Assembly: GCF_900115225.1 (NCBI RefSeq)
Contig: NZ_FOVR01000009.1
Location: forward strand, 1 to 64,000
Source: Cohaesibacter marisflavi
GTDB lineage: Bacteria > Pseudomonadota > Alphaproteobacteria > Rhizobiales > Cohaesibacteraceae
Length of the DNA: 64,000 bases
Direction of reading: 5' to 3'
The notes under the pieces were generated by a model. That model was not told the DNA's origin and did not search any database. It saw nothing but the letters and a program-made list of their open reading frames with translations. Below, piece by piece: positions 6,170-54,384 of this stretch (positions are counted from its first letter, which is position 1; every line of letters starts with the position of its first letter). Made by a program: the position numbers and the translations under genes.

Positions 6170-6199
6170 CGTTATACTAAAATTGCATAACTCCCATTC

Positions 6200-6919: not shown

Positions 6920-6962
6920 TTAAGAAACAGAATTGGCTACCAACCAACTCTTTCCATTTGCC

Positions 6963-7352: not shown

Positions 7353-7451
7353 CACTCACCCAATAAAAAGGCACGCCGGAAAGCCGCCCTGTAATGCGAC
7401 CTTGCGGCATGCCGATTGATTGATCCCGAACCGGTTCCCGTGGGAACAGGC

Positions 7452-12670: not shown

Positions 12671-13189
12671 GGTTTTCCCCAAACACCCTAAAATCTACAG
12701 CCCGGTTGTCTTATTGAACAATTCGGCTTTGTTGACCAATTGGATTTGATGACAATCTGTCCCCAGCCCTGAGAAACAAAGCGGTGCCAATAGACCAATC
12801 ACCAGATATCTCTGTCCCACTCTCACTGAATATGGTTAACAAATTACAATCACGCGTCCTACGCAAAGTTCGGTATAAGAAAAGTGACCGGGAACTGCGC
12901 TACTTATGCAACGCTACACACAAGTCTGCAGCGCATCCGCTCAACAAGAGCGTGCATAATGAAGCGCAATCGCCTATTGAAAACCAACAATGGCGCAGGG
13001 GTTATTCGCAAAATAAGTCAGAATCTTGAAAAGAACACGCGAAACCACCCAGAAATGCTTGACGAGCGGCGCAAGGATCACTATACCGAGGCAACTTTCC
13101 GCCGTCGAGCATCCTAGCAAAACGGCAGAACACAGAACAGAAAATGAGCGGGCGCCATTGGCGTCCTACTAATTTGTGAGGGATTTTCC
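12671..13189. other. Intergenic region between the DUF3108 gene and rpmB
   Basis: This 519-bp divergent interval must contain promoters for both genes. Short frames here have no support. I see no clear regulator palindrome; the rpmB ribosome binding site GTGAGGGAT lies just before 13190. Confidence 0.5.
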
Positions 13190-13480
13190 ATGGCACGTCG
13201 CTGTGAACTGACCGGCAAAGGCGTTCAGTCCGGTAACAATGTCAGCCACGCAAAAAACAGAACCCGCCGTCGCTTTCTGCCAAATCTGGTGAATGTGACT
13301 CTGCTGAGCGATACACTCGGCACAGGTTTCAAGATGCGCGTCAGCGCTCACGCTTTGCGTTCTGTTGAACATCGTGGCGGCCTTGACGCTTTCCTGGCCA
13401 AAGCCAAAGAAGCAGATCTGTCAGCCAATGCGCAGCTGATCAAAAAGAAAATTGAAAAAGCACAGGTTGCTGCATCTTAA
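13190..13480 (+). CDS. rpmB: 50S ribosomal protein L28
   Basis: The 96-residue basic protein starts [20 protein letters not shown], the signature of bacterial L28, and has the [10 protein letters not shown] rRNA-binding segment. The C-terminal Lys-rich helix is typical of alphaproteobacterial L28, which is longer than the 78-residue E. coli form. The gene stands alone, with a terminator 45 bases downstream. Confidence 0.97.
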
Positions 13481-13525
13481 TGCAGTTTCGGATTAGTCCG
13501 AAAATCTGGCTTGATCGTTAAGAAG

Positions 13526-13549
13526 CAGCGCCTCTTTTGGCGCTGTTTT
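13526..13549 (+). terminator. Terminator after rpmB
   Basis: CAGCGCC (13526-13532) pairs with GGCGCTG (13539-13545) around loop TCTTTT, then TTTT. Confidence 0.85.
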
Positions 13550-13610
13550 CATATCCAACGCTGCTTTGGGCTATTCTCCCATTCGCGGCCAACATCAAGG
13601 AGGGTGACAT

Positions 13611-14246
13611 ATGGTTGCTACTCGTAAAACCCTTGGCCTTTCCGTTCTGGCCATGGTGGGCGTCGTTGCTGCGTCCAACTATCTCGTTCAATTCCCGTTC
13701 AAACCGTTTGGCCTGCAGGATCTGTTGACCTGGGGTGCCTTCACCTATCCGATGGCGTTTCTGGTAACCGACCTGACCAACCGCAAATGCGGCTCCAGGA
13801 ATGCACGCATAGTGGTCGCCGCCGGTTTTGCCATCGCGGTTCTGATCTCTATCTGGCTTGCCACCCCGCGCATTGCCATAGCATCCGGCTCAGCCTTTCT
13901 GGTCGCCCAACTGCTCGATATCACGGTCTTCAACCGTCTGCGCCGCAACAGCTGGTGGAAAGCCCCGCTGGCTTCTTCCTTCTTCGGTTCGGTTCTCGAC
14001 ACGGTGATCTTTTTCGGCTTCAGCTTTGCTGCGTCCTTTGCCTTTCTTGATACAAGCTTTGGCATGACACCGGATGTCTTCCCGACAGAAGCCTCTTCTC
14101 TGCTGAGCCTTGGCCTGATTGATGCGCCGCGCTGGGTCAGCTGGGCAATCGTCGATTATTCCTGCAAGATGTTTGTCGCACTCCTGATGCTGGCGCCTTA
14201 CAGATTGCTGCTCAGCCGTCAGGACGCTCTGCCAGCAACCGCTTGA
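13611..14246 (+). CDS. Queuosine precursor transporter (VUT/YhhQ family)
   Basis: The 211-residue membrane protein belongs to the VUT/ECF-related family that imports queuosine precursors such as preQ0 or preQ1. It has about six membrane helices and the family features FTYPMAFLVTDLTNRKCG (residues 43-60), ASFFGSVLDTVIFF and the C-terminal VDYSCKM. The start ATG has a strong AAGGAGGG ribosome binding site. The gene is separated from rpmB by a terminator and has its own terminator. I could not recognise a preQ1 riboswitch in the 60-base leader. Confidence 0.9.
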   Translation: MVATRKTLGLSVLAMVGVVAASNYLVQFPFKPFGLQDLLTWGAFTYPMAFLVTDLTNRKCGSRNARIVVAAGFAIAVLISIWLATPRIAIASGSAFLVAQLLDITVFNRLRRNSWWKAPLASSFFGSVLDTVIFFGFSFAASFAFLDTSFGMTPDVFPTEASSLLSLGLIDAPRWVSWAIVDYSCKMFVALLMLAPYRLLLSRQDALPATA

Positions 14247-14281
14247 AAGAAGCGGGAGTAAGAATAGAACCCCATCCATGC

Positions 14282-14312
14282 AAAAAGCCGGTCAATTCCA
14301 GACCGGCTTTTT
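14282..14312. terminator. Bidirectional terminator
   Basis: AAAAAGCCGGTC (14282-14293) pairs perfectly with GACCGGCTTTTT (14301-14312), loop of 7. It lies between two convergent genes and has A and T runs suited to both. Confidence 0.88.
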
Positions 14313-14368
14313 CTATATCCCTTACCGTCATTGTCACCCGTTGTCAGCCATGTTTGCTTACATACGGG

Positions 14369-15433
14369 TTAGCGATTCGCAGGCAGACGAAACTGCAACA
14401 ACAGTGTGCTCTGTAGAAAATTGAAATTATCATCAGACATGAGCGTAATCAGATTGTCTCCCGCCCCGCCCATCGGCTGAATATCCAGCGCTTCCATGTT
14501 ATCCATACCATCGCCCAGATTGGCGCGGAACAGCAAATCGGTGTGAGCGATCGGTCCGGCCTGGAAGTCCTCTGCCCGCACCCGCCGCATTTGCACGACG
14601 AGCCCACCCAGAATGGAAAAATTCCGCTCAAGAATAACGAGGTCACCCTCTTGGGTGAAATCCGCATCCGCAGCCAGCAATTCCCCGGACTGAGGCAATG
14701 AGAAAGCCAGTGGAGCCCCTGCACCAACAATCCAGCCCAAGATGCGTCCATTCTTCGGCTTCTCGGAAAGAACCACAAAACCTCCGGCAAAAGGGTGTCC
14801 GTCGGGAATGGTCGCGATGGACTCCAGCCCCCGGTTGGCCTGATTGGCTTCACCGATCTCGCGCGACAAGGGAAGATGTCCCTCAAGCCGAAACAATTCG
14901 TTACCCTTGAGGCTATAGCGTGTCACCCGCGTCTCGCCCTCAAAGCTCACGAAGGCCTCACCGCCCTTGATCGCAAGTCCTTCGGAATCCCTGCGCCATC
15001 TTGGTAGCTCGACGCCGACACCGGGCAAGGGACGTATGGACGTATCCGCAAGCGTGATGGGGCGTTCCCCCTCACGGACAAGACGGGCAGACAGAACACT
15101 GCCCCTGTCACTGATCGCCAGAAAATGATCTGGATCCACGAAGGCAAGACCGGAAAAGCCACCAAAGGTCGGCTCATCGCTGGAAAGCGTGAGGCCACCA
15201 AGCCATTCCAACTGACCATAGGTTGTCCGCCCTGAAGAAAACCGCCCGAGACGGTCGATAATCTGGGCAGAAACATCAATGGCAATGCTGCTCGGCGCAG
15301 CCTTGGGCAACGCCTCCATAGGGGCCGTGTGCCCTTGCACAGAAAGGCTGGTCGCAATGGTCACCAAAATAGAAAAGCAGACTGACAATCGCAGTCTGCT
15401 TTTACTGAATAAGCCGGTCTTGCTGGACTGCAT
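14369..15433 (-). CDS. Esterase-like/phytase-like beta-propeller secreted protein
   Basis: The 354-residue protein has a signal peptide (hydrophobic run LSVCFSILVTIATSLSVQG) and an esterase-like activity of phytase domain (PF13449 type), seen in EWLGGLTLSSDEPTFGGFSG, RDSEGLAIKGG, LESIATIPDG and the C-terminal DGMDNMEALDIQ/LMSDDNFN. The substrate is unknown. I place the start at ATG 15433, directly after the cobT stop (4 bases apart) and behind AGGAGG; an earlier frame start at 15487 would overlap cobT. It is probably the last gene of a cobS-cobT unit although not a B12 gene. Confidence 0.83.
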   Translation of the reverse strand: MQSSKTGLFSKSRLRLSVCFSILVTIATSLSVQGHTAPMEALPKAAPSSIAIDVSAQIIDRLGRFSSGRTTYGQLEWLGGLTLSSDEPTFGGFSGLAFVDPDHFLAISDRGSVLSARLVREGERPITLADTSIRPLPGVGVELPRWRRDSEGLAIKGGEAFVSFEGETRVTRYSLKGNELFRLEGHLPLSREIGEANQANRGLESIATIPDGHPFAGGFVVLSEKPKNGRILGWIVGAGAPLAFSLPQSGELLAADADFTQEGDLVILERNFSILGGLVVQMRRVRAEDFQAGPIAHTDLLFRANLGDGMDNMEALDIQPMGGAGDNLITLMSDDNFNFLQSTLLLQFRLPANR

Positions 15434-39793: not shown

Positions 39794-40561
39794 TTGCTGG
39801 AAACCTTGCCCCTCTTTGCCCATACCCAGCTTACCGAGGTGACGCTCTGGGGGCTCATCATCGCGAGCTTCTTCACATCTGCATTCACGGCCGCCTTTGG
39901 CATTGGCGGCGGCGTGACCCTTCTGGCGATTTTAGGCATGGTCATTCCCGTGACCACGCTCATTCCCGTGCATGGCACCGTGCAGATGGGGTCCAACGCC
40001 GGGCGCGCTTGGCATCTGCGCAATCACATCCATTGGCGCCTGATCGGCCTTATCGCGCTGGGCGCTATTGTCGGCACCCTTCTTGGGTCTCAGATCGTCG
40101 TCGCCCTACCCGATGCCCTTCTCAAGACCATTCTTGCCCTGTTTGTTCTGGCAATCACCTGGCTGCCCACCCCAAGGCGAGTGAAAAGCGGAGATCGCAC
40201 TGTTGGAGTTGGCGCTTTTATCGCTTCTCTGGCAGGTATGTTTGTGGGCGCCACCGGGCCGCTGCTTGCTGCCCTCATTTCCGGCCGGATCGACAACCGG
40301 CAAGGGGTCGTTGCCACTCATGCAGCAGCCATGACACTCTCCCATGCCTTGAAGATCATCGCCTTCGGTTTTATCGGCTTTGCCTATACCAACTGGCTGG
40401 GCCTTATCGGCGCCATGATTCTGTCTGGATATCTGGGCACCCGCACCGGCAGCAAACTTCTCCATGTCATGGATGAGGTGCTGTTTCGCAAGATTTTCAG
40501 AGTGATCATCACGGCGCTGGCGCTGCTCATGCTTTTGGGCGCGGCCCGAAGCGTCCTGTGA
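39794..40561 (+). CDS. TauE/SafE-family anion exporter
   Basis: The 255-residue membrane protein has about eight helices and the two TauE/SafE repeats, each with a glycine-rich signature: FTAAFGIGGGVTLLA near residue 35 and AGMFVGATGPLLAAL near residue 150. Members export sulfite, sulfoacetate or other organic anions. The start is TTG 39794. Its 3' end overlaps by 35 bases the convergent ABC ATPase gene of a NitT/TauT-type importer, so a shared link to sulfonate metabolism is possible but unproven. Confidence 0.88.
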   Translation: MLETLPLFAHTQLTEVTLWGLIIASFFTSAFTAAFGIGGGVTLLAILGMVIPVTTLIPVHGTVQMGSNAGRAWHLRNHIHWRLIGLIALGAIVGTLLGSQIVVALPDALLKTILALFVLAITWLPTPRRVKSGDRTVGVGAFIASLAGMFVGATGPLLAALISGRIDNRQGVVATHAAAMTLSHALKIIAFGFIGFAYTNWLGLIGAMILSGYLGTRTGSKLLHVMDEVLFRKIFRVIITALALLMLLGAARSVL

Positions 40562-41270
40562 CATCCCCCATCAGAGCGTGCTCAATCTCATCGGCCAGCG
40601 CCAATTCCTGTTGCCGATTGCCCCGACCATAATTCTCAAAACGGGTCACGATGCGTGTCGGTGCGGATGTCAGCAACAAGATTTCATCGGCCAGCGCCAC
40701 AGCATGGCGGGCATCATGGGTCACCATCAACAGGCCCATTCCGTGTGCATCAACATGATGACACAACAGCGCCTGCATCTGTTGGACCAAACTGAAATCA
40801 AGCCCGTGGAATGGCTCATCCAACAGCAGCATATCCGGCTCGACAACGAGGGCCCGCGCCAACGAGACCCGTTGACGCATACCGCCCGAAAGCTGATCGG
40901 GAAATTGCCGATAATGCTCCTCAGGCAACTCCACGGCCTTCAGCATAGCCGCCGCCTTTTCCTCCCGCTCACGACGAGCAGCAACCTGCCCCTTCAAGGC
41001 AAAAGCCACATTGTCGATGGCCGTCCGCCATGGCAACAAGAGTGGCTCTTGAAACATCACTGAAAGGCGCTGCACAGCACAGACAATCCGGCCAGCATCG
41101 GGATTCAAAAGTCCAAGCATCAGAGACAGCAAAGTTGTCTTGCCGCATCCCGAAGGCCCCATAAGCGCCACCACTCCCTGTGTCGAGCAGGTCAGCGATA
41201 TATCCGCGAGCACCGGTTGGGAGCCATAGGCAAAATGAACATTCTCGATCAAGAGCAGATTATCCCCCAT
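40527..41270 (-). CDS. ABC transporter ATP-binding protein (NitT/TauT type)
   Basis: The 247-residue ATPase has Walker A GPSGCGKT, Q-loop MFQEPLLLPW, signature LSGGMRQRVSLARAL, Walker B LLLDEPF and the switch His in VTHDAR. The N terminus is MGDNLLLIENVHF from ATG 41270, which overlaps the permease stop by 11 bases, indicating tight coupling. It belongs to the taurine/nitrate/aliphatic sulfonate-like group. Confidence 0.93.
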   Translation of the reverse strand: MGDNLLLIENVHFAYGSQPVLADISLTCSTQGVVALMGPSGCGKTTLLSLMLGLLNPDAGRIVCAVQRLSVMFQEPLLLPWRTAIDNVAFALKGQVAARREREEKAAAMLKAVELPEEHYRQFPDQLSGGMRQRVSLARALVVEPDMLLLDEPFHGLDFSLVQQMQALLCHHVDAHGMGLLMVTHDARHAVALADEILLLTSAPTRIVTRFENYGRGNRQQELALADEIEHALMGDVTGRFGPRPKA

Positions 41271-42057
41271 GATTGCCCCTTTCCTCCTGCCTGCGCCAGA
41301 CATGCATGCGCTCGCGCACAAGGCGCAACAGCAGATGGTCAAGCACAATCAGGATAAAGACGACGACAACCACCCACGCCAGCAATTGGGCCGTATCCAC
41401 CCGCGCCCGCGCAGCTGCGATGCCATCGCCGATGCCACCCGAGCCAGAGAGCAGCTCAGCCATAATGGAAACTTTCCATGACATGGCCAACGTTGTGGCC
41501 AGCGCCGGATAGAGATAGGCCAGCATATGAGGCCCATAGACATCGCTTACCATCGCCCGTGGTGGCGCATGGAAGGCGCGAGCCATCCGCGCCAGATCCC
41601 CATCAAGGCTGCGCACAGCTTGCAAGGCGGCAGCAAAGATCATCGGCGCGGTCGCCACGGCAACCGTGAAGACCACCGCCCACCGGCCACCAAACCACAG
41701 CAGAGCCAACACGATCCACGCGATCGCCGGAATGCCAAGAAGGATGATGGACACCGGCTGCAACACAAAACGCACATCTTTGAAGCGACCGGCCATACCT
41801 CCTGCCATCACACCCATCACGACACTGATGCACCAGCCTAAAAGCGCATTGAAGGTCGTGGTCTGAAGCGCAACCACCACCTCCCCTGCCCTGATCATCC
41901 TGCCAAGCATGACGAAGGTTTCGCCGACGCCGGGCAGCACGAGCGAGCCATAGGCAACATGGCCCGCCTGCCACAGCGCCAGCATTCCCCCAACGCCGAC
42001 AGCAAACAGCAGCCACCGCTTCAGATATCCGGATCTTTGTCGATCACGCTTGGCCAC
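41260..42057 (-). CDS. ABC transporter permease (NitT/TauT type)
   Basis: The 265-residue permease has about six membrane helices and the EAA-type coupling loop in ARMARAFHAPPRAMVSDVYGP (about residues 160-180). It is the SsuC/TauC-like membrane subunit between its substrate-binding protein (3 bases upstream) and ATPase (11-base overlap). The substrate is not evident. Confidence 0.92.
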   Translation of the reverse strand: MAKRDRQRSGYLKRWLLFAVGVGGMLALWQAGHVAYGSLVLPGVGETFVMLGRMIRAGEVVVALQTTTFNALLGWCISVVMGVMAGGMAGRFKDVRFVLQPVSIILLGIPAIAWIVLALLWFGGRWAVVFTVAVATAPMIFAAALQAVRSLDGDLARMARAFHAPPRAMVSDVYGPHMLAYLYPALATTLAMSWKVSIMAELLSGSGGIGDGIAAARARVDTAQLLAWVVVVVFILIVLDHLLLRLVRERMHVWRRQEERGNHGG

Positions 42058-42060
42058 CCG

Positions 42061-43074
42061 TTACCCCCAGTAAAAATCCGGCGTCGGCTTCCTACCACCA
42101 ACAATGCCCGGATCAAGGCTCATCAGATGCTCAAAATAAAGCTCGATATCCGCACGCGCCTCTTTGGCCGACTGCACATCCAGATGTACATAGGGCAGAG
42201 ACTGGGCGATCACCGGCGCAGGCAGGGGAAGAGATTGCGCAGCCAGCTTACCCGCCTCATCCCAGTTGGCCTTTGTCCACTCGCCCGCCTCAACGCAGGC
42301 CTGATGCACGGCGGCAACGACCTCCGGCTTCTCTTCAAGAAAGGCAGGGTTGACCGCCAACCCCACCTGCGGAATGCGTGGCCCTCGCCCCGTGTGAGCG
42401 CCGTAAACCTTTGTGATATCGATGGCGCGATAGAGAGGCAGCCCGGCTTTTTGGGCCCGAAACAGCGCCGCAGTCGATGCAGGTTCATGCAACACCGCCA
42501 CATCGCCGCGCCCTGAGAGATAAAGCGGCACCGCTTCCCCCGGCGAGCCGACATAATCCAGCGTCACATCCTTGTCCGGATCCAGTCCGGCCCACATAAG
42601 CACAAGACGAAACAGCAAATCGGGCGCTTCATTCTTGTTGGACAGCAAAACCCGCTTGCCCGCCAGATCCTCAATTCTGGTTATGCCCTCCTCACGCGCC
42701 ATCACATAGAGCACACCCCATGTCACCACATTGAGCATCACCGTGCCTGCGCCGCGATTGAAGAAATTGGCAGCAGCATAGGTGGAGGTTGCAAACAGCT
42801 TGAAGTCGCCAGAGGCAATGCCCGCGCGCATCTGGTCGGTGCTTTTCCAAACATCAAACCGTAAATCCGGCGCGATCCCCTCCAATGCACCAGAGGCCAC
42901 TGCGCGGGCAAAGACGGCAGAAGGAGAGGCAGGAATGCCCCACAGGGTCAGACCACCAGAAGCGGCCTTGGCCGACAGACCACCCAGAGAGAAAGGAGCC
43001 CCCGCGATAGCCAACCCAACGGCCCATTTGAGCAACGAACGCCTTTCGAGCGGCATGTCCGACGGTAAAAACAT
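42061..43074 (-). CDS. ABC transporter substrate-binding protein (SsuA/NMT1-like)
   Basis: The 337-residue protein has a twin-arginine-type leader (ERRSLLKWAVG, then a hydrophobic stretch ending AKAA), suggesting Tat export. The mature part is an SsuA/NMT1-type two-lobed binding protein, with FDVWKSTDQMRAGIASGDFK, RIEDLAGKRVLLSN and LHEPASTAAL. Relatives bind nitrate, sulfonates or pyrimidine precursors; the ligand is unknown. It is first in its three-gene operon, and its promoter region is shared with the divergent hydrogenase operon. Confidence 0.88.
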   Translation of the reverse strand: MFLPSDMPLERRSLLKWAVGLAIAGAPFSLGGLSAKAASGGLTLWGIPASPSAVFARAVASGALEGIAPDLRFDVWKSTDQMRAGIASGDFKLFATSTYAAANFFNRGAGTVMLNVVTWGVLYVMAREEGITRIEDLAGKRVLLSNKNEAPDLLFRLVLMWAGLDPDKDVTLDYVGSPGEAVPLYLSGRGDVAVLHEPASTAALFRAQKAGLPLYRAIDITKVYGAHTGRGPRIPQVGLAVNPAFLEEKPEVVAAVHQACVEAGEWTKANWDEAGKLAAQSLPLPAPVIAQSLPYVHLDVQSAKEARADIELYFEHLMSLDPGIVGGRKPTPDFYWG

Positions 43075-43437
43075 CTCCCAACCTCCCTTTTTACCTTAAG
43101 CTGCCCCACCGACTAGAACACCACTAAAATCCAAAGAGAAAAACAGAATTCAAGGCAATTTCTGGCAAACCGACCCCAAAGGACCATATTCAACAAGTCT
43201 TTCACACTTATAAGACGAAAGTATTGAATACATCGTACTTCCGCCAAAAACAAACAATTCTCAGTATTCTTACCGCGACAAAACAACATTCTGGAAAAAT
43301 TTGAGAATTTACCATAACACCCTCAATCTAATCACATTTTCAAAAAAATTATATAGATAAAAAACAAACAGATAAATATTTCACACATTGAATTAAAAAT
43401 ATTTCTCTTCAGATCCGACGGGTTGCTTTGTAGCAGT

Positions 43438-43451
43438 TTGACTTACCGCAA
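43438..43451 (+). promoter_or_regulatory. Degenerate FNR/FixK-like site
   Basis: TTGAC-TTAC-CGCAA matches the FNR core TTGA-N6-TCAA at seven of eight positions. It lies about 180 bases before the hydrogenase partner gene. Anaerobic control would make sense, but the match is imperfect. Confidence 0.3.
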
Positions 43452-43523
43452 GATTTTTACCCTTTTCTGGCCGAACATAGCCACAGACAAGAAAACGGCT
43501 TTGTCCAAAGGGTGGATCTACAA

Positions 43524-43590
43524 GGAAGGCACCGTATCAGCTGCGGGGCGCTCTGCCTTCTTGCTTCGCATCTAACCATAGATGCCTTCC
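43524..43590 (+). promoter_or_regulatory. Leader with mutually exclusive pairings
   Basis: GAAGGCA (43525-43531) can pair with TGCCTTC at 43554-43560 or, as GGAAGGCA, with TGCCTTCC at 43583-43590. The second choice overlaps one arm of a perfect 7-bp hairpin GCATCTA (43568-43574) / TAGATGC (43579-43585). The fold lies 37-103 bases before the GTG at 43627. Function is inferred only. Confidence 0.35.
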
Positions 43591-43626
43591 GGTTTATGAT
43601 GGTTATTCTACGCGACGGGGGTCAGT

Positions 43627-45624
43627 GTGGCACAAGTGGTGTATGGCGTTTGGGATGGGGTTGTTCATGATGCACGGCGCAATTTGCCCGGCACGGACAC
43701 GCCACTCGCAGCCTTGCGAAATTTCGACGAATTTGACGAAGGAAATGCAGTCCGTGCCTTTTTTGCGGACAGGGGCTTTTTCGTCTTTGATGAGAGCGTC
43801 AGTCTGGTCGACGGGCTTTTTCATTATATCAACAAGGCTGCGGAACAATCCTGCGGTGCCTGCACGCCCTGCCGCATGGGCACAGTGCTGATACGGGACG
43901 CGCTGGACAAGATGCGCCGCGGGCTGGATTCCCCGCTCGATTTCGATGATATCGAAATGCTGGCTGACCAAATGAAGGAAACCTCCCTTTGTGGCCTGGG
44001 ACAGACCTGCTGCATCGCCCTGTTGGAGGTCATCCATCACTTCCGCGAGCAGATCGAGAAGGAAGTGGCCGATCATATGCCCATCCGCGCCCAGCATGGC
44101 ATGGCCTATATGACAGCCCCCTGCATCGAGGCTTGCCCCTCCAAGGTCAATGTGCCGCGCTATATCGACTATATCCGCGATGGCAAACCGGAAAACTCAC
44201 TGGGTGTGTTGCTACAGAAATACCCCATGGCCGCCACCTGTGGCCGTGTCTGTGTGCGCTATTGCGAGCAGGCCTGCCGACGTAAATTCGTGGACGAGGC
44301 AGTGGGTATCAAAACCCTCAAGCGCTTTGTCGCAGACCAGCAGAAAGGGCCGCATGCCCTCAAATTCACTCGGGAAATGATCCAGAAGCCCCTTGCCGAT
44401 GGCATGAAGGTTGCCGTCATTGGCGCCGGACCAGCAGGCATTTCCTGTGCCTATCACCTGCTGCTACACGGCTATCATGTGGATGTGTTTGAAAAGCAGG
44501 ATAAAGCCGGCGGCATGGCCCAGATCGGCATTCCGAATTATCGCCTGCCCAAGGATACCCTCGCCATGGAAACCGACATCATCGTTGATCTGGGGGGCCG
44601 TTTCCTGTTTGGCCAGCAATTGGGAGCCGATTTCACCATCGACGATCTGTTCCAGCGCGGCTACAAGGCGGTTTTCCTTGGCCTTGGCTGTCAGGAAGGC
44701 ACCATGTTGGGCCTCAAGAATGAAGAACAGGTACGCGAAGGCTATTTCACCGGCATCGATTTCCTGCTCAAGGTACATGACCATGTGGATGGCATTAACA
44801 CCTTCCAGCTCAAGGGCGATGTGGTGGTCGTAGGCGGCGGCAACGTTGCCATGGACTGCGTCCGCTCGGCGGTCCGCCTTGGTGCCGACAATGCTCACCT
44901 CATCTATCGCCGCACCCGCGATGCCATGCCCGCCGACACTGAAGAGGTGGAAGAGGCAGAGAAGGAAGATATCGACTTTCATACCCTTTGCACACCGACC
45001 CGTATTATCAGCGAGAATGGCAAGATTACCGGCATTGAACTGGTTGAGATGGAAGAAACGGAGCCGGACGAAAGCGGTCGCCGAAGCGTGCGCCCCATCC
45101 CCGGCACGGAACATGTCATGGCCTGCTCAACGGTCATTGCCGCCATCGGCCAGCAGGTGGAAAGTCAGGAACGCATTGCCGAGGAAGGCATCGACTTCAA
45201 CCATTGGAAATGCGTGGAAGCGGACAAGTCTCTGACCACCTCCCGACCTGGCGTCTTTGCCGGTGGGGACTGCGTTACCGGCCCCTCTACTCTCATCTAC
45301 GCCATGTCGGCAGGGTTGAAGGCCGCACGCAGCATCGACGACTGGATCCAGTTCGGCACGCCGCGCTTCTTCAAGCGCTCTCGTATGCGCGAGCTGATCA
45401 ACGAGAATGCCTTCCTCGCCAATGACGCGGTGGAAACGCCGGTGCGCAATGGCTATCGGGTGCATAATCCGGCGCTTGATCCGGATTTGCGCAAGAAAAT
45501 GTTCAGCGAGGTGGAACAGACCATCAGTCTGGAAGACGCCTATACCGAGGCGCAACGCTGCATGCGCTGCTATCGCCTCTATTCCGTCATCACCAAGCAT
45601 TCCATCCCCGAAGGAGCGGCCTGA
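43627..45624 (+). CDS. NuoF C-terminal domain / GltD-type flavin oxidoreductase fusion (hydrogenase partner)
   Basis: The 665-residue protein has three parts. Residues about 60-145 match the iron-sulfur domain of NuoF: SCGACTPCRMGT (Cys76, 79, 82) and Cys122, the N3-type [4Fe-4S] ligands; the NADH/FMN-binding half of NuoF is absent. Residues about 160-235 are a GltD/NfnB-like cluster domain (Cys166, 170, 205, 209, 213, 217). Residues about 260-620 are the FAD/NAD(P)H domains, with GAGPAG (266-271), VVGGGNVAMDCVRSAV and VFAGGDCVTGPSTL. CMRCYR near the end adds two cysteines. The GTG follows a GGGGG ribosome binding site, and the hydrogenase gene starts 3 bases downstream. It likely passes electrons between NAD(P)H and the hydrogenase. 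Confidence 0.85.
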   Translation: MAQVVYGVWDGVVHDARRNLPGTDTPLAALRNFDEFDEGNAVRAFFADRGFFVFDESVSLVDGLFHYINKAAEQSCGACTPCRMGTVLIRDALDKMRRGLDSPLDFDDIEMLADQMKETSLCGLGQTCCIALLEVIHHFREQIEKEVADHMPIRAQHGMAYMTAPCIEACPSKVNVPRYIDYIRDGKPENSLGVLLQKYPMAATCGRVCVRYCEQACRRKFVDEAVGIKTLKRFVADQQKGPHALKFTREMIQKPLADGMKVAVIGAGPAGISCAYHLLLHGYHVDVFEKQDKAGGMAQIGIPNYRLPKDTLAMETDIIVDLGGRFLFGQQLGADFTIDDLFQRGYKAVFLGLGCQEGTMLGLKNEEQVREGYFTGIDFLLKVHDHVDGINTFQLKGDVVVVGGGNVAMDCVRSAVRLGADNAHLIYRRTRDAMPADTEEVEEAEKEDIDFHTLCTPTRIISENGKITGIELVEMEETEPDESGRRSVRPIPGTEHVMACSTVIAAIGQQVESQERIAEEGIDFNHWKCVEADKSLTTSRPGVFAGGDCVTGPSTLIYAMSAGLKAARSIDDWIQFGTPRFFKRSRMRELINENAFLANDAVETPVRNGYRVHNPALDPDLRKKMFSEVEQTISLEDAYTEAQRCMRCYRLYSVITKHSIPEGAA

Positions 45625-45627: not shown

Positions 45628-47487
45628 ATGTGCACCACTGAGCCCATCAGCTATGCCGGACGCGATCCTGCCGAGGCAACCATCAAGCTTCAGATCAACA
45701 ACAAGCAGTGCATGGCCTTTCCCAACGAGACCATCCTGTCCTGCGCGCGGCGCCACGATATCTACATCCCAACCCTGTGCGAACTGGATGATATCGATCA
45801 CACGCCGGGCACATGCCGCGTCTGCGTCGTGGAAATCACCCATTCAAAACACAATGGCGCGCAGATCGTTACCTCTTGCAACACTCCGGTGCGTGAAGGG
45901 ATGACCGTCCAGACACGATCCAAAAAGGCGCGCGACATGCAGAAGCTGCAGGTCGAACTGCTCATGGCGGACCATCTGCAGGACTGCGCCACCTGCATCC
46001 GTCATGGTGATTGCGAGTTGCAGGACGTGGCCCAATATGTGGGCCTGACGGAAAACCGCTTCTTTGACCGGCTTCTGGCCGAGAGCCGCCCGGTGGACGA
46101 AGCCTCCACATCCATGATCCGCGACATGCGCCGCTGTATCCGCTGTCAGCGTTGCGTTGCCATTTGTCGCGATCATCAGGGCATTGATGCCCTCGTCATG
46201 GAAGGCACCGGCAACAACCGCGTCGTTGCTCTGCGCGATAGCACCGATCCGATGAGCAATATCTGCGTCTCCTGCGGGCAATGCGTTCTGGTCTGCCCCA
46301 CCGGGGCGCTGGGCGAGAGAGACGAAATCGACAAGGCTCTCGATTATATCTGTGATCCGGACATCACAACAGTGGTCCAGTTTGCACCAGCCGTGCGCGT
46401 TGCCTTTGGCGAAGAATTCGGCATGCCTGCGGGCACCAATGTAGAAGGCCATGTCATAGCAGCCTGCCGCAAAATCGGCGTCGATATCGTGCTCGACACC
46501 AACTTCGCCGCTGACGTCGTTATCATGGAAGAAGGCACCGAGCTGCTCGGCCGCCTCAAGGAGGGCCGCAAGCCAACCTTTACCTCTTGCTGCCCGGCAT
46601 GGATCAATTTTGCAGAAACTCACTATCCCGATATCCTGCCTCTGCTGTCGTCAACCAAATCACCCCAACAGGTGCTTTCGACCATTGCCAAGACTTACCT
46701 ACCGGAAAAACAGGATATTGCAGCCGACAAGATCCGCGTCATCTCAATCATGCCCTGCATCGCCAAAAAAGACGAAGCAGCCCGCCCGCAATTGGGTGAA
46801 GCAGGCAAGCAGGATACGGATGTGGTGCTGACCACCCGAGAATTCGCCCGCCTTTTACGGCGTGAAGGGATTGACCTCAAGACCATCAAGCCTTCCAGCT
46901 TCGACAACCCGTATATGAGCGAATATTCTGGCGCTGCCGCCATCTTCGGCACCACGGGCGGCGTCATGGAAGCCGCCGTGCGGACCATTTATTCGGTGGT
47001 CAACGGCAAGGAGCTCGACAAAGTGGAGCTTACGCAGTTGCGCGGCTTTGAAGGGGTACGCGAAGCAACGGTTGATCTTGGTGGCCCGATCGGCGCGGTC
47101 AAGGTCGCCATGGTCCATGGGCTCGGTGACACGCGCAAACTGGTGGAAATGGTCCGCTCTGGTGAAGCCGATTATGACTTTATCGAGGTCATGGCCTGTC
47201 CGGGGGGATGCGTCGATGGCGGAGGCTCCTTGCGTTCCAAGAAAGCCTATTTACCGCTGGCCATGGCGCGGCGGGAAACCATCTATAATGTCGACCGGAA
47301 AACCAACGTGCGCCAGTCGCACAAGAATATGCAGGTGCAGGCCCTTTACAGGGATTTTCTGCAAGCACCAAACTCGGAAAAAGCCCATCACCTGCTGCAT
47401 ACGCACTATGAGGATCGCCGCAAGGACCTTCGGCATACGGTGAAGGAAATCTGGGACAATCTGTCCATGAGCTCGGTTCTTTACTGA
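45628..47487 (+). CDS. hydA: [FeFe]-hydrogenase catalytic subunit
   Basis: The 619-residue enzyme makes or oxidises H2 at an H-cluster. N-terminal relay: [2Fe-2S] ligands Cys51, 63, 66, 84; a His-ligated [4Fe-4S] (His116, Cys120, 123, 129); two ferredoxin-type clusters (Cys170, 173, 176, 180 and Cys213, 216, 219, 223). H-domain signatures are all present: L1 TSCCPAW (Cys322 ligand, Cys321 the proton-relay Cys), L2 MPCIAKKDE (Cys377), L3 EVMACPGGCVDGGG (Cys524, Cys528). The C-terminal small-subunit-like tail includes LHTHYED. The architecture is that of clostridial CpI-like (M3) enzymes. No hydE, hydF or hydG maturase gene is in the window, so they must be elsewhere if it is active. Base composition is like its neighbours. 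Confidence 0.95.
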   Translation: MCTTEPISYAGRDPAEATIKLQINNKQCMAFPNETILSCARRHDIYIPTLCELDDIDHTPGTCRVCVVEITHSKHNGAQIVTSCNTPVREGMTVQTRSKKARDMQKLQVELLMADHLQDCATCIRHGDCELQDVAQYVGLTENRFFDRLLAESRPVDEASTSMIRDMRRCIRCQRCVAICRDHQGIDALVMEGTGNNRVVALRDSTDPMSNICVSCGQCVLVCPTGALGERDEIDKALDYICDPDITTVVQFAPAVRVAFGEEFGMPAGTNVEGHVIAACRKIGVDIVLDTNFAADVVIMEEGTELLGRLKEGRKPTFTSCCPAWINFAETHYPDILPLLSSTKSPQQVLSTIAKTYLPEKQDIAADKIRVISIMPCIAKKDEAARPQLGEAGKQDTDVVLTTREFARLLRREGIDLKTIKPSSFDNPYMSEYSGAAAIFGTTGGVMEAAVRTIYSVVNGKELDKVELTQLRGFEGVREATVDLGGPIGAVKVAMVHGLGDTRKLVEMVRSGEADYDFIEVMACPGGCVDGGGSLRSKKAYLPLAMARRETIYNVDRKTNVRQSHKNMQVQALYRDFLQAPNSEKAHHLLHTHYEDRRKDLRHTVKEIWDNLSMSSVLY

Positions 47488-47528: not shown

Positions 47529-48728
47529 TCAGGACAGGCCCGATCCCCGCTCCTGCAACAGATCCGCATTGAGCGGAATCCGGCAGCTGATTTCAAGATT
47601 GCGGTTCGCGTAGCCAACCGTCCAGTCTCCTCCCAGAATCTGCAGGATATGTTCAGCCAGCAGAAGGCTGCCCGCCCGTTCGGTGCCAAACAGATAGGCC
47701 AGACTGATGGTGCCGGAAACATCAAATTGACGAATATCCTGCGCCTGATCCTCTGCGGTGCCAAACTCGGAGATAAAGATATCGAGCGTCTCGGAGCCGA
47801 GTTCATAACTCACGGCGACATCAGAGCTTTCGCTCGCGTAGCGCACGGCTCCGCGCAGCAGAACAAACAGCAGTTCCCTGAGTAGCCCCTCGTCACTGAG
47901 AATGATCGAATCAGCAACATGCTCGCAAAAGCTCAGCGTCTTGCCAAATTGCTCGGCTTCAAAGCGACATTCCTCAACCACTTCGGTCAAGACGGTGCTG
48001 ACGTCAAACGGCTTGAGTTTGAGGGCACTCTCCTTGTTCAGCATGGATATGCCCACGCCGACATAGGACACCTCATTCCGCAGCGCGGCAATCCGTTCGA
48101 GTGCATCGGAGATGAGGCCCTCGGCCTCCTGTCCGCGTCCAGCCTTAAGCGCATCAAGGGCCAGAACGGCGAATCCGTGAGACTGATCGAGCCCGCCATT
48201 GATATGCTTCAGCCAACCGCCAATCTTGTCCGCATCAAGCTGTTTCTGATGATAGTTCAAGCGGGTGTTCGATGCGATCTGGGCGATGTTGCGCAGCATC
48301 AGTTCAAGCGTCTTGGCTGAAAGCTCCTGTTTGGCCAGAAACATGTCCGCGCCGGAATTGAGGCTGACCTCCTGAAAAGACGTATCATCAAGCGACGACA
48401 TGACAACGATCGTACCGGCAGTGTCGCCTCCCTCTCTCAGAGAGGAAACAAGGGAAACAGAGGAATCCTCCCCCATCCAGTAGTCGAAAAGATAGAGATC
48501 AAAATGATTGTCTGAGCAAAGTTTCTCAGCTTCTTTCAAACTGTCGGCAAAGGTCACGTCAAACCGAAACCCTGTCAGCTGTTGCAGCAACCAATGCACA
48601 TAGCGCCTGTCAATCGGATCATCATCCAGCAGAAGACATGAAAGATGAATATCTTCTCCAGCGGCTTGAGATATCCGCTCGAGTTCGCTCGCCATTCCCT
48701 GAGAATAGCTCATCCAGGCCGCACACAT
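47529..48728 (-). CDS. Response-regulator/degenerate histidine kinase protein
   Basis: The 399-residue protein starts with a receiver domain (about residues 27-150): acidic pocket LLLDDDPIDR, phospho-acceptor Asp in LFDYWMGEDS, Ser in VVMSS and Lys in LAKQEL. The rest resembles a kinase DHp plus ATP-binding region, but the expected H-box histidine context (HDLRTP-like) and the N and G boxes are not recognisable, so catalysis is doubtful. ATG 48728 follows GGGGG. The receiver shares the unusual D-[YF]-W-x-G motif with the REC-kinase at 54842-56062, which suggests a common origin. It lies just past the hydrogenase gene, convergent, with a 41-base gap. Confidence 0.75.
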   Translation of the reverse strand: MCAAWMSYSQGMASELERISQAAGEDIHLSCLLLDDDPIDRRYVHWLLQQLTGFRFDVTFADSLKEAEKLCSDNHFDLYLFDYWMGEDSSVSLVSSLREGGDTAGTIVVMSSLDDTSFQEVSLNSGADMFLAKQELSAKTLELMLRNIAQIASNTRLNYHQKQLDADKIGGWLKHINGGLDQSHGFAVLALDALKAGRGQEAEGLISDALERIAALRNEVSYVGVGISMLNKESALKLKPFDVSTVLTEVVEECRFEAEQFGKTLSFCEHVADSIILSDEGLLRELLFVLLRGAVRYASESSDVAVSYELGSETLDIFISEFGTAEDQAQDIRQFDVSGTISLAYLFGTERAGSLLLAEHILQILGGDWTVGYANRNLEISCRIPLNADLLQERGSGLS

Positions 48729-48785: not shown

Positions 48786-49472
48786 TCACAAACAGATATT
48801 CACCCTGAGCACATCATCTCCGTTCTTCTCCATGTAAAGCGCCCAACCATGCCGGAGGCAAATCTCACTACACTCATGAAGACAAAGAAGTTCGAACAGA
48901 TCTCCAGATTTATACTGCGCCAACTCGCTCAACTGGAGTTTCTCCGAAAAATCAATGCTGCAAGGCGAGAAATCGAGACGAATATGAGCGGCAGATGCCT
49001 CATCGTGACAAACGGAAAGAACCAGTTCTGCGGATTGCTCTTTGGCAACATCGAAGGGAATGCTTCTCAAGAGCCGCTGGATAAACTGCCGCAAAAACTG
49101 GGGATCGGCGGTCACCGAGATCGAATTTTCCCTTTTGAACAAAACTGTTTCAAATTGGAGTGATTCTATTTCCGTCGACAGAGCAGCCGCAAAATTGGCC
49201 TCCTGCAGTGCAAGAGGCTTGCACATGGCATCAGAATACGCACGCACGGCCTGTGTCATTTCGGACAACTGTCTGGTCTTGTCTTGCACCATCCCCAGAA
49301 TGACCTGCGCATCCTCATCAAGCGAGTCAGCATGCTCTGCCTTAAAAATCTCGATCAACTGGGCAATCTGCCTGATGGGGGCCATGGTGTCATGGGCAAT
49401 CCGGCGGCTAAGCTCATAGCGCGCTTTCATGCTCTGTTCGGAAGAGGATACGCCGCCGTCCTCATTGGTCAT
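48786..49472 (-). CDS. Histidine-kinase-like protein lacking a clear ATPase domain
   Basis: The 228-residue protein (ATG 49472, 8 bases after GGGAGGG) has a DHp/HisKA helix pair with the phospho-acceptor motif RRIAHDTMAPIRQIAQL. Downstream, about residues 110-228, no N-, G1- or G2-box can be seen, although the secondary-structure pattern looks ATPase-like. It may be a pseudokinase or a histidine phosphotransfer protein. It is 57 bases upstream of the REC/kinase-like gene on the same strand and is probably co-transcribed; the giant sensor gene is divergent. Confidence 0.7.
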   Translation of the reverse strand: MTNEDGGVSSSEQSMKARYELSRRIAHDTMAPIRQIAQLIEIFKAEHADSLDEDAQVILGMVQDKTRQLSEMTQAVRAYSDAMCKPLALQEANFAAALSTEIESLQFETVLFKRENSISVTADPQFLRQFIQRLLRSIPFDVAKEQSAELVLSVCHDEASAAHIRLDFSPCSIDFSEKLQLSELAQYKSGDLFELLCLHECSEICLRHGWALYMEKNGDDVLRVNICL

Positions 49473-49707
49473 CACAATAGCCCTCCCGATACCGTGAAAA
49501 ATCAACAACCAAACAACCTTAAGATGTATAGACATATTTAACTATGGTTAATTTGATGTTAATCTTCCCTCTAAGTTTCGGATATGTCTAGATAAAACTG
49601 ATCATTTATAGTGATTACAAAAGCCTTCGCTCAATGGATCATCAGCCGAGCGCAAGGCGACATTGCATCGAAAACCGTGTTTTTCATTCCTTGGGGGAGG
49701 ATTGATC

Positions 49708-52700
49708 ATGAGTAAAGATACTGATTCCGAACAGCTTTCGGCGACACCGGCCCAAGAAGCGCTCGACCAGAAAGTGCAGAACAGCTCAGCCCCTTCGGAA
49801 AACACCAAAGTGGATGCATCTGAACAGCTATCGCATCCGCCCGCAGAAGAAACAGCTCTGGACGATCCGCAAACAGAGCCCGGTCAACAAGGCAATACGA
49901 TTCGCATCGTTGCGATCGGCGCCTCGGCCGGTGGTTTGGAGCCAATAGAGCAGTTTTTTGATGCCTTACCCACAGATCCCAATGTGGCATTTGTCATCAT
50001 TCAACACCTCTCCCCCAACTTCCAGTCGATGATGGATCAGTTGATCGCCCGCCACACGCATATGCGCATCGTCCATGCGGAAGATCAGATGGCCATCGAG
50101 CCCAACGTCATCTATCTCAATCCGCCCCGAACCGAGCTCTCGGTCAAAGAGGGCAAACTCTCGGCAACCGCTTATCCCGACAATGATATGCTGAGCCTGC
50201 CCATCGATGCCTTTTTCACCTCTCTCGCCAAAGAAGAGGGGGAACACGCCATCGGGATTGTCCTGTCGGGAACAGGATCGGACGGCACCAGAGGCAGCTT
50301 GCAGATCGTGCAACATGGGGGTGTCGTCATTGCGCAAGAGCCATCCAAGGCCAAGTTCGACTCCATGCCCCGCAAAGTCATCGACACCATCAACACCGCC
50401 TATGTTGCCGACGTGACGGATATGCCGGAAATCCTCGCGGCGGTGATCAGCGGCTCAGAAGTACCCCGCCCAGAACCGGAAGCCATTGATACGGAGATAG
50501 GCAATCCTGAATCCCGTATTCTGGCCATTTTGCAAAAATCCTACGGCACGGATTTCACCTTCTACAAGAACGCGACCATCCATCGCAGAATCCAGCGCCG
50601 CGCCCTGCTCAAGCGCGAGGCCAGCCTCGACAAATATTGCGAGAGCCTACTGTTTGACAAGGAAGAAATGGACACCCTTTATTGTGACTTGCTGATTGGG
50701 GTCACCGAATTTTTCCGCGACAAGGAAGCCTTCGAGGCAATCAAGTCGAAGGTTCTGCCCGACCTTGTTGCAAATATGACTGAGGAGAGACAAATCCGGA
50801 TCTGGGTGCCCGGCTGTGCAACCGGTGAGGAAGCCTATTCCATCGCCATACTGGTGAGCGAAATCGCCAAGCGCAACGGTATCACGCCCAACCTCAAAAT
50901 ATTCGCAACCGACATCCATTTCAGATCCCTCGAAATTGCGGCAGAAGGAAGCTACAACGCCGAGAGCGTGGCCCATATTCCAGAGACATTGCTCAAAACC
51001 TATTTTGATTTTGTCGACAACCGCTATCAGGTGAAGAAAAGCCTCAGGCGCAAGGTCGTCTTCTCGACGCAAAATCTGCTAAAAGATCCGCCCTTTACCA
51101 AAATAGACCTGGTTACCTGTCGCAATTTGTTGATTTACTTTAATGAATTGGCCCAGCGCAAGGTGTTGTCGCTGTTTCATTTTGCCCTCAAGGAGAAAGG
51201 ACACCTCTTCCTGGGATCAAGCGAAACCGTGGGCAATCTGGATGAAGAATTTACCTCCATCGACAAGAGATGGCGCATCTTCCAGAAAAAACACAACAGC
51301 CAGATCCGCGATGCAGCCTTCTTGATGCCCGCCACGTCACGCTCACAAGAGGACACGGAAAATGGCCTTTCCCTAAGAGAAACGCGCTCTCACAATCTGG
51401 CAGCAGCCAAAAAGGAAAGCCTCACCCGCCAAGCCCTCTATGGCGCCTATGACAGGTTGCTAGAGCGGTATGCGCCGACAGGGTTCCTGATCAATGACCT
51501 TGGCGAATTGATGCATATCTTTGGCAATGCGGACAAATTCCTGCAAGTCCGCAAGGGGTTGTTCAGCAATCGCATCACAGATCTGGTGCAGACGGATCTC
51601 AAACTCGCGATCACGTCTGGCATCGAACGCGCCATGACGATCAACCACGAACCAGACTTCGAACGCTCCGTCCAGATCAAGGAATCCGAAGACAATCTGA
51701 CCCGTCTGACCATCCGGGTCACCAAGATCCTGAATGTGGAAAGCCACAGTGTTTTCCTGCTGATCACACTGGAAGAGAGGAAATCCCCGCTTTCCGAGCG
51801 CACAATCAAGAACAGCAACGCCCCCATATTGGGCCATGAAGAGATCTATGTCAGCCGCATTGCCGAACTGGAAAATGAACTTCGCTCCACGGGTGAAAGC
51901 CTTCAGACAACCATCGAAGAGCTGGAAACGAGCAACGAGGAACTGCAGGCGACAAACGAAGAACTAACCGCCTCCAACGAGGAACTGCAAAGCACCAACG
52001 AAGAGCTGCATTCGGTCAACGAAGAGCTCTATACCGTCAGCGCCGAGCATCAGCGCAAGATTGTCGAACTGACCGAAATGACGGATGACATGGAGAATCT
52101 GCTGCGCAGCACGCAAATCGGAACCATCTTTCTTGATGAAGAGGCGAGAATCCGCCGCTTCACACCAGCCTCAACAAAAGCCTTCAACCTGATGCCTCAT
52201 GACGTAGGCCGCCCCATCGGCCATGTCACCTGCCGTTTTGACAGCACCGACTTGCTGACCCACACGCAGGAAACCATCACCAGAGGCACCGAACATTCAA
52301 GAGAAGTCGAATGCGATGGCATCATCTATCTGCTGAATATTCTACCCTATAAGACCGAGCTGGAAACCATCACCGGCGCCGTCATTACTGTGTTTGAAAT
52401 TGATGAATTGAAACGCGCGCAGGAGCGTGTGAAACAAGAACGCGAATTCTACAAAACCGTCGTCGATCTTCAGAGCGACCTCATCTGCCGCTTCAAGCCG
52501 GACACGACCATCACCTACGCCAACAGTGCCTTTCATGCCTTTTTCGACATCACCCCGGACGCCATAAAGGGAACCCTTTTCAAAAATCTTTTGAAAACCC
52601 CGCAAAAGGAAGATCTGGTCAATGCGATTGAAAATCTGGAGCAGGATGTCTCCATCGAATGGGAGTTCAAACAGGCAGACAAGTCCAGCAAATGGCTGCA

Positions 52701-54384
52701 ATGCCGCTTCAACATCCTGCGAGACGAGCATGGAGCGATTTTCGAGATTCAGGCGGTCTTGCACAATGTGACGGAAATTGTCGAACGGGAGAATTTGATT
52801 AGCGAGTTCAACCGCATAGCGGCCAGCACCAATCTTGACCTCAACGACAAGATCGAGCGTATTCTAACCCGCGTATCCGAGGTCTCAAGGCTACCTGCTG
52901 CGCTGAAAATAAGTTTCGAAAATCAGCAGATCGCAATCGACACCATTATCGGGATGAAAAAGGGCAAGCTCTCGGTTGGGCAGACCTTCTCAACCCCGTG
53001 CGCTTCTTGCCAGCATGCTCTGACCTCTGACGAGGGCATACCCTATCGGGACTATTTCATCGCCTGCATTGTCAGGACCACAGACATATTCCATTCCAAA
53101 GGCTATCAAACAGTCATCGGCGCGCCGACCATAAGCAATGGCGAGGCCAACGGAGCCATTCTCCTTGCCTCGAAATTCCACATCAGCAAAAGCTATCTTG
53201 AAAATTACCAGCCAATAGTCGACCGCATTGCCGACTGGATCGGCTATGAGCTGTTTCGCAGAGACCAGCAAGAGAAGCTGGAAATGCTCAATAACATGTT
53301 CATGGAAGAAGAAGAGCGCTTCCGCAAGCTCTATATGGAAACCCCGGTCATTATGCATTCCCTCGACAAGGATGGCATTATTGTTGAGGCCAATGAAGAA
53401 TGGCTCACAACGCTGGGCTATGAACGCGAGGACGTCATCGGTCACCATTGGGAAGAATTCATGACGGAGGCCTCAACGCAATATGCCTATGAGGTGGTAT
53501 TGCCCGAGACCACCAAGAACAAGCAAGCCGACAATGTGCCCTTCCAGATGGTTAAAAAGGACGGGGGCATCATAGATGTCGAAATGTCGACCATCATCGT
53601 TGCAGACGGAAAAGGCGTTGAGCAGACTCGCACCGTACTCGCCGATGTGTCCGACAGGGTGCGCGCTGAAAAGGAACTCGAAGCACACAATCAGGAACTC
53701 AAGCTGATCAACGAGAATCTCAATCAGTTCACCCATATCATCAGCCACGATTTGGCTGGCCCGCTCCGCGCCATCCAGCATACCGCGACCTGGATCGAGG
53801 AAGATCTGGACGAAAACACCCAAAACGAAATCCAGGAGCATATCGACCGGCTAAAGGACCAGATTTCGCATCTGGGCAGCCTGATCGCAGATCTGTCAGA
53901 TTATTCCAAAGCCGGTTCTAATGTTCAGGAAGCTGAAGAAATCCATCTGACAGTCAATCTGCAAAGCATCTTCGATATCGTGGACGGCAGCGACGCCATC
54001 CGCTTTGAGACCAGCTTGCCACAGGAGAGCATTCTTACCTACCGCGCGCCCCTGTTACTCGTGCTGCGTAACCTGATTGAAAACGCCATTAAATATCATG
54101 ACAAGGACAATGGTATTGTGAAGGTCTGGCAGGAAGATCTGGGCGATGCATGGGCCTTTGCTGTCTGCGATGATGGGCCGGGCATCGACCCCAAACATCA
54201 CGGCAAGATCCTGCTCCCCTTCAGGAAGCTGGAACGCAAGGACAAGGTTCCCGGAAACGGCATGGGACTGGCATTGGTCAAGAAAGCCATTGAGTCCGTA
54301 GGCGGAACGCTGACAATCCTCTCGGATCCATCCATAGAGCCGGGAACGACATTTCGTTTCACCTGGCCCAAACAAGGGAAATAG
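49708..54384 (+). CDS. CheB-CheR-PAS-GAF histidine kinase
   Basis: This 1558-residue multidomain sensor starts at ATG 49708 after TTGGGGGAGG. Order: CheB methylesterase (about 65-245; Ser in GASAGG, His in IQHLSP, Asp in GTGSDGT), CheR methyltransferase (about 266-520; [16 protein letters not shown] site, and TCRNLLIYF), a long coiled coil (about 715-790) of Glu/Asn heptads, PAS (about 800-900), PAS (about 910-1030), GAF-like (about 1045-1195, with a CASC motif), PAS (about 1200-1325), HisKA with HDLAGPLRA near residue 1345 and an intact HATPase (N box [26 protein letters not shown]). There is no membrane segment. It probably autophosphorylates and feeds one of the nearby receivers. Confidence 0.92.

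Follow-up and report, generated by a model that had tools for sequence, protein, structure and literature searches.

A conserved [FeFe]-hydrogenase-like HydBA pair in Alphaproteobacteria whose genomes lack the maturases HydE, HydF and HydG

How can an [FeFe]-hydrogenase gene be intact and constrained in a genome that lacks the enzymes for maturing its active site? According to the available text of a review (PMC6212873), every microorganism that has an [FeFe]-hydrogenase also has maturases, and HydE, HydF and HydG (HydEFG) are described there as universal, yet the HydA described here is strongly constrained without them. The gene lies in a 64,000-nucleotide stretch of the Cohaesibacter marisflavi genome (the window), where hydA (45628–47487, + strand) encodes a 619-residue catalytic subunit of group A, with an ATG start, no internal stops, and a NuoG-like relay, an H-domain and an SSU domain in that order. 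The initial annotation had called it a complete [FeFe]-hydrogenase, and profile searches bore this out. The protein scored 522 bits against TIGR02512 ([FeFe] hydrogenase group A; cut-off 405.95), 300 bits against Fe_hyd_lg_C (PF02906) and 75.5 bits against Fe_hyd_SSU; its score against NF040763, the NCBIfam model for NADH-dependent [FeFe] hydrogenase of group A6, was 722.4 bits, below the cut-off of 765. The reading frame is not a chance one, since its product is 79% identical over residues 1–619 to a Rhodovulum adriaticum protein. Its best matches by sequence in the PDB were 8a6t and 7q4v (505 and 499 bits), with CpI next.

The residues expected of a working enzyme are in place. The H-cluster ligands Cys322, Cys377, Cys524 and Cys528, the relay Cys321 and the full N-terminal relay, all listed as intact in the initial annotation, were found in the alignment. 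The relay comprises a 2Fe-2S site (Cys 51/63/66/84), a His-Cys 4Fe-4S site (His116/Cys120/123/129) and two further 4Fe-4S motifs. Glu302, Glu305 and Ser341 are also intact and correspond to E279, E282 and S319 of CpI, whose numbering we mapped onto HydA through an alignment with CpI. Narf/Nar1-like proteins have an H-domain without an N-terminal NuoG-like relay and with an altered diiron pocket. A Narf-like identity fails for HydA, in which both relay and pocket are complete; its family matches are not Narf-like and it groups with group A proteins, in a tree that contains no Narf row. The assignment to group A is one of sequence and makes no claim to an active hydrogenase.

The presumed partner of HydA is encoded by hydB (43627–45624, + strand), which starts with GTG and ends 3 bp upstream of hydA. 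The 665-residue HydB resembles a diaphorase, with the C-terminal 4Fe-4S domain of NuoF (PF10589), a Fer4_20 domain and a GltD-like FAD/NAD(P)H oxidoreductase, but no NuoF FMN/NADH domain. We found a full-length HydB match in all 48 loci whose genomes had maturase tests, and the Cys motifs of its clusters were conserved in 14 aligned homologues. HydBA should connect the H-domain electronically with NAD(P)H; electrons would pass, in one direction or the other, along NAD(P)H, the FAD and 4Fe-4S clusters of HydB, the NuoG-like relay of HydA and the H-cluster. Open frames of 1,096–1,411 residues had suggested a HydB–HydA fusion in Rhodoplanes-type loci; this was ruled out by a stop that ends HydB at its usual length in 10 of 10 loci checked, seven of them from clade II (defined below). 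One maturase-less alphaproteobacterial metagenome-assembled genome carries a NuoE–NuoF fusion gene just 3′ of hydA (L051, 12337–14331, + strand).

The pair fits neither of the two known systems that it most resembles. In the bifurcating HydABC enzymes of group A3, HydB has a NuoF-type FMN/NADH domain and is joined by a NuoE-type HydC. The closest PDB relatives of HydA are of this kind (8a6t is so named, and 7q4v is bifurcating as well) and HydB shares the NuoF tail domain with them, but it lacks the FMN/NADH domain, and no NuoE-like HydC was found among ten neighbours scanned with Pfam. In the putative, glutamate synthase-linked group A2 of HydDB, a HydA with a NuoG-like N terminus likewise stands beside a GltD-type oxidoreductase. 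The available text of HydDB defines A2 by an adjacent downstream gene of GltA/GltD type with no NuoF domain (PMC5037454); here, the GltD-type gene lies upstream of hydA and carries the C-terminal cluster domain of NuoF, and the window genome is without maturases. That source gives the role of A2 as undetermined and suggests that it might couple the oxidation of H2 to the reduction of NAD (PMC5037454).

The initial annotation had noted no hydE, hydF or hydG in the window, and a profile search extended this to the whole genome (5.34 Mb, 98.5% complete). No match exceeded the cut-off anywhere: the best scores were 79 bits for HydF (cut-off 325.6), 27.9 bits for HydG (312.2) and 44.4 bits for HydE (254.6). 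Matches to the HydF model below its cut-off occurred likewise in 13 of 14 control genomes. Two radical-SAM proteins matched by the HydE and HydG models were considered as divergent maturases and identified as CofG and CofH, which in the window genome are encoded by adjoining genes for coenzyme F420 precursor synthesis (L010, G000:C28, 267–2772).

We extended the search to 48 genomes, with 50 of 80 loci with HydA homologues chosen. All candidates were scored in the window genome and in this set, bar one in one maturase-bearing genome. HydG was over its cut-off in 22 of the 48 and HydF in 25; both were found in 22, HydF alone in 3 (L106, L108 and L117, counted as maturase-bearing on HydF alone) and neither in 23. 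HydE had no match at E 1e-15 in any of those 23 genomes or in those of L068 and L089, where it was the sole maturase tested, and it exceeded its cut-off in all four of the other genomes searched for it (two Pleomorphomonas, two Ancalomicrobiaceae). HydA proteins from HydG-positive genomes were 62–71% identical to that of the window. Across 397 sampled genomes of the window's order, HydA was present in 34 and HydF (E 1e-40, with the best four to five first-look candidates scored per genome) in 18, all of them within the 34. Sixteen HydA-bearing genomes were thus without HydF among those best candidates: 13 from the window's genus, a match by coordinates to Rhodobium orientis and its genus-mate, and one match by coordinates to Blastochloris sulfoviridis. 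Coordinates also show that four genomes are common to this set and the first. Six of the 16, all from the window's genus, are single contigs. We conclude that the absence of maturases is real and not an assembly gap, since 23 of 48 homologue-bearing genomes lacked HydG, HydF and HydE and six single-contig genomes lacked HydF. Comparison of the hydBA flanks, up to 10 kb, identified no substitute maturation gene. Two genomes in which HydF and HydG were not over cut-off encode a second, different HydA (G408, Blastochloris sulfoviridis, C18:44368–45321; G392, C13:2222–3067), so the maturase-less state may extend beyond the hydBA cassette.

A tree of 79 HydA rows, built by a quick method with SH-aLRT support and no bootstrap and excluding L065 and L110 for their internal stops, resolved the maturase-less proteins into two clades, each with an SH-aLRT value of 100. 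Clade I (19 rows, 17 of them maturase-tested, with L044 and L116 counted without that test) contains Cohaesibacter, Rhodovulum, Tropicimonas, Aliiruegeria, Rhodopseudomonas and Rhodobium, and adjoins the maturase-bearing Pleomorphomonas side. Clade II (7 rows) contains Blastochloris, Rhodoplanes, Rhodovulum sp. PH10 and a Xanthobacteraceae strain. The closest named homologue of the window protein is from Cohaesibacter haloalkalitolerans (94% identity), followed by clade I proteins from Rhodovulum, Tropicimonas, Rhodopseudomonas and Rhodobium (76–81%) and then Pleomorphomonas (69–71%). Families are mixed within clade I, with Rhodopseudomonas inside Rhodovulum and Cohaesibacter copies at no fewer than two places, and its deeper forks have moderate support. 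Read by itself, the HydA tree suggests that hydBA moved between families without maturases. Seven maturase-bearing genomes have one HydA only; among them, HydG and the H-domain are no more than 1 kb apart in G419, G420, G423 and G430 and share a contig in G422 and G428. Given this proximity, HydA presumably descends from an ordinary hydrogenase.

The initial annotation had also described such enzymes as rare in Alphaproteobacteria and the flanking genes as chromosomal. Both descriptions held. An [FeFe] H-domain occurred in 24 of 385 sampled genomes of the class (22 of the 24 being genomes of 0.9–2.3 Mb), which makes HydA uncommon but not unheard of, and a close relative (L234, G736:C1) carries hydBA among the same neighbours on a contig of 5.39 Mb. 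PLSDB held no plasmid record above 60% identity for HydA among 15 records matched.

Active-site constraint was compared between maturase-less and maturase-bearing proteins. All 27 pocket positions of the H-domain were invariant across the 19 clade I and 7 clade II rows, none of them told maturase-less from maturase-bearing rows, and 26 were as in CpI, with the remaining one (CpI S232) being Ala in all five groups compared. The 16 relay ligands of HydA were invariant in both clades. The window protein was matched at 42 of 42 positions by 15 HydF-less rows from the order, and 11 of these rows belong to genomes outside the first set. Within clade I, 163 of 285 H-domain columns were invariant, and the hypergeometric value for pocket enrichment of 1e-7 overstates the effect because the pocket residues belong to the structural core and were selected with their function already known. 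Median pairwise ratios of H-domain to N-domain divergence were 0.77 in clade I and 0.85 in clade II, compared with 0.78, 0.79 and 0.65 in three comparison groups (four of the eight rows of the 'Prop' group entering without a maturase test), and slopes through zero were 0.74 and 0.76 compared with 0.61, 0.78 and 0.66. The comparison rows share 128 invariant H-domain columns. Clade I retains 115 of these and clade II 118, and leave-one-group-out controls kept 128/139, 128/156 and 128/146. On ratios, slopes and retained columns together, the maturase-less clades show little or no relaxation of the H-domain.

Estimates of dN/dS for hydA were 0.04–0.18 in eight maturase-less pairs, two of which had dS above 1, and 0.05–0.09 in five comparison pairs; one pair (L107–L112) entered without a maturase test. 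The two clade II pairs (0.15 and 0.18) lay above all five comparison pairs. Clade II also has residues of its own at positions 130, 166 and 319. Position 319 lies two residues ahead of the relay Cys and is Ser in place of Thr, which together with the higher dN/dS makes some relaxation possible in this clade. Both maturase-less clades have Ala237 and mostly Val250; maturase-bearing rows have mostly Val at 237 and mostly Phe or Leu at 250. This may be a convergent change in both clades.

Divergently upstream of hydBA in the window lies an ABC importer (40527–43074, − strand), which the initial annotation, as with HydB, had left unmentioned. It consists of an ATPase (40527–41348; assigned by Pfam and flank comparison), a permease (BPD_transp_1, distantly SaoP/SsuC-like; 41260–42057; profile matches) and a substrate-binding protein of the SsuA/NMT1-like type (42061–43074; profiles and predicted structure), all on the − strand. 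The binding protein has an invariant, Tat-like Arg-Arg near its N terminus. Its predicted structure (pLDDT 89) matched 3hn0 best (Z 31.9), with PqqT, NrtA, CmpA and SsuA among the further matches (Z 26–27). In the first set, every one of the 19 clade I rows had the binding protein and permease next to hydBA, placed divergently upstream in 5, downstream and co-directional in 13, and upstream and co-directional in 1. These two genes were also next to hydBA in 9 of 13 rows on the sister side, which comprises Pleomorphomonas and its neighbours and includes one row on a short contig. When the best five candidates per genome were scored across the order, the binding-protein orthologue (514–587 bits) was found in 24 of 397 genomes. 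The next matches reached at most 361 bits, which sets the HydA-linked version apart as a class of its own by score. All 24 genomes also have HydA, and we conclude that the importer is a lineage-linked partner of hydBA. As a specific substitute for the maturases it was rejected: on the same best five candidates per genome, it occurs in 12 of 16 HydF-less and 12 of 18 HydF-bearing HydA genomes, and is therefore not a marker of maturase loss.

The link has exceptions. Three clade I genomes (G519, G631 and G789) have neither the orthologue among those best five candidates nor an importer beside hydBA. A replacement gene at its place in G519 and G789 was considered and dropped, as no pattern emerged among the neighbours (DctM, DUF459, MBOAT, GDSL, Pta-like, SelO, Fe-ADH and one unmatched protein, the last also found 3′ of hydA in G631). 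The importer was missing from the flanks of six of seven clade II loci, two of these flanks ending at a contig edge; in the clade II locus L075, a copy 46% identical lies about 4 kb past hydA. Between importer and hydBA, the divergent intergenic region (43075–43626) contains a weak, putative FNR/FixK-like site, TTGACTTACCGCAA, at 43438–43451. The motif TTG(A/C)N6(T/G)CAA occurred in 5 of 19 clade I upstream regions (0.5 expected, in related rows), in none of 7 from clade II, in none of 7 from Pleomorphomonas and Oryzibacter and in 3 of 14 others (0.45 expected); a sigma-54 scan of the hydBA upstream regions gave nothing consistent.

Paralogues of the importer keep different company. The window genome has a paralogue cluster with two SsuA-like binding proteins (L245, G000:C40:1–18000, 5243–15224), together with an ABC ATPase, NnrS, a TonB-dependent receptor and a Crp-family regulator. 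A paralogue cluster in G690 has NnrS and a TonB receptor; at the G747 paralogue, the scan covered two unmatched ORFs, neither of them NnrS or a TonB receptor. PLSDB held no record above 60% identity to the binding protein among 49 matched, and in three of the 49 a plasmid paralogue of 37–45% identity adjoins NnrS genes, accompanied by Nap, pseudoazurin or a TonB receptor in one record each. As a lead only, this company suggests nitric-oxide or iron-complex chemistry. The NnrS-linked importers are paralogous to the HydA-linked one, which, unlike them, has no NnrS or TonB gene among the Pfam-scanned clade I neighbours.

What, then, does HydBA do? A dead HydA does not by itself follow from the absence of maturases, because the active site is under strong constraint. 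Fermentative H2 metabolism, which the initial annotation had predicted from the gene, is not simply predictable either: with maturases absent genome-wide and from two whole clades, the protein would need either a HydEFG-independent route to the diiron site or a diiron-free function. Of the two signs that the initial annotation had named as pointing to an inactive or differently used protein, missing maturases and no H2 activity under anoxia, the first is thus what the searches found. Presence and use of the diiron site would be the simplest account of the constraint on proton relay and diiron pocket. The reading that we favour, tentatively and short of calling it probable, makes the product of hydBA an [FeFe]-hydrogenase linked to NAD(P)H, with the cassette kept, and seemingly passed between families, without HydE, HydF and HydG. 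HydA would still bear an H-cluster-type diiron site, obtained by a route independent of HydEFG, and would reduce protons or oxidize H2 under low oxygen. Its diiron unit might come from an unrecognized biosynthetic route or from uptake of a precursor released by neighbouring organisms. To our knowledge, no HydEFG-independent assembly of the site has been described, and an invariant pocket is also expected if it binds something else.

We rank as nearly as likely a diiron-free function, in which HydBA, having lost the diiron site together with the maturases, would serve as an NAD(P)H oxidoreductase that is not a hydrogenase and uses the [4Fe-4S] part of its pocket; its substrate might be the compound that the importer brings in. 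A 'different role' was proposed for the Rhodospirillum rubrum protein in literature cited in the available text of PMC4967309. The missing maturases fit such a function, the slightly higher dN/dS of clade II would agree with it, and a substrate-handling role is plausible given that all 19 clade I rows in the first set keep the binding protein and permease next to hydBA, across three different arrangements. It is harder to reconcile with the residues C299, E279, E282, S319, K358, M353 and M497 of CpI, which have known roles at the diiron site or in the proton relay and which never vary in clades I and II, or with the finding that no pocket position separates maturase-less from maturase-bearing rows and that the H-domain is little relaxed if at all.

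It is unlikely that maturases are present after all, either too divergent for the TIGRFAM models or encoded on unassembled DNA. Some of the genomes are drafts, and three maturase-bearing genomes have HydF over and HydG under the cut-off, but the same models score 490–648 bits (HydG, 22 genomes) and 493–559 bits (HydF, 25 genomes) where maturases are present, HydF, HydG and HydE fail jointly in 23 genomes, and the six single-contig genomes have no HydF. We also consider as a long shot that clade I organisms scavenge their cofactor: the importer would bring in an iron–diatomic (CO/CN) precursor or ligand source from HydEFG-bearing neighbours, and HydA would complete the diiron site. The NnrS and TonB-receptor company of the paralogues would fit a transporter family for iron–diatomic complexes, and the idea parallels the in vitro activation of recombinant [FeFe]-hydrogenases by synthetic precursors, as reported in the available text of PMC6212873. 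That hydA is a decaying relic being lost, as its patchy occurrence within the window's genus (13 genomes out of 18) might suggest, is scarcely credible and already contradicted by the low dN/dS (0.04–0.18), the retention of all ligands, the occurrence in several families and the lack of internal stops in any PF02906 match that the search of 397 genomes listed.

Part of this puzzle has been glimpsed before. Earlier work cited in the available text of PMC4967309 describes an [FeFe]-hydrogenase in the alphaproteobacterium R. rubrum, likewise in a genome without maturases, and judges it probably inactive or differently used; the same text reports maturases in Pleomorphomonas and Phaeospirillum, in agreement with our searches for Pleomorphomonas and Magnetospirillum (Phaeospirillum) molischianum. 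The R. rubrum protein is not among the rows of our tree. Beyond that remark (PMC4967309), the available text of the open-licence literature searched describes no maturase-less proteobacterial clade, nor did we find there the breadth, the two clades, the constraint or the importer link. An intact HydA without maturases suggests another way of making the active site or a second job for the protein. If the former is true, a source of the diiron site other than HydEFG would alter the picture of hydrogenase biogenesis and engineering; if the latter, the presence of HydA alone would be no proof of H2 metabolism in genome surveys. Bearers of maturase-less HydA include Cohaesibacter, Rhodovulum, Rhodobium, Rhodopseudomonas and Rhodoplanes, many of them with strain names.

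The surroundings of hydA vary beyond the importer. The scanned neighbours of clade II hydBA include an M28 peptidase, TctC (two loci), an autotransporter and an EAL protein. An ORF of 734–737 residues lies 5′ of hydBA in two clade II loci (L078, 5361–7574, + strand; L100, 5381–7585, + strand) and is matched in four further ones; the L078 copy had no match in Pfam, and the ORF might be either a genuine gene or antisense to one. Elsewhere in the class, a 3.7-Mb genome encodes a group A HydA with a C-terminal SnoaL-like domain (L241, G183:C1, 8382–10454, − strand), with no HydB homologue in the 18 kb around it. In the window, hydA is followed by a receiver-domain protein (47529–48728, − strand), an ORF without a match (48786–49535, − strand) and a 1,573-residue CheB–CheR–PAS–histidine kinase fusion (49663–54384, + strand). 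Among the loci compared, the three stand together beside hydA only in L042 and L235, and the fusion is also found near hydA in L234.
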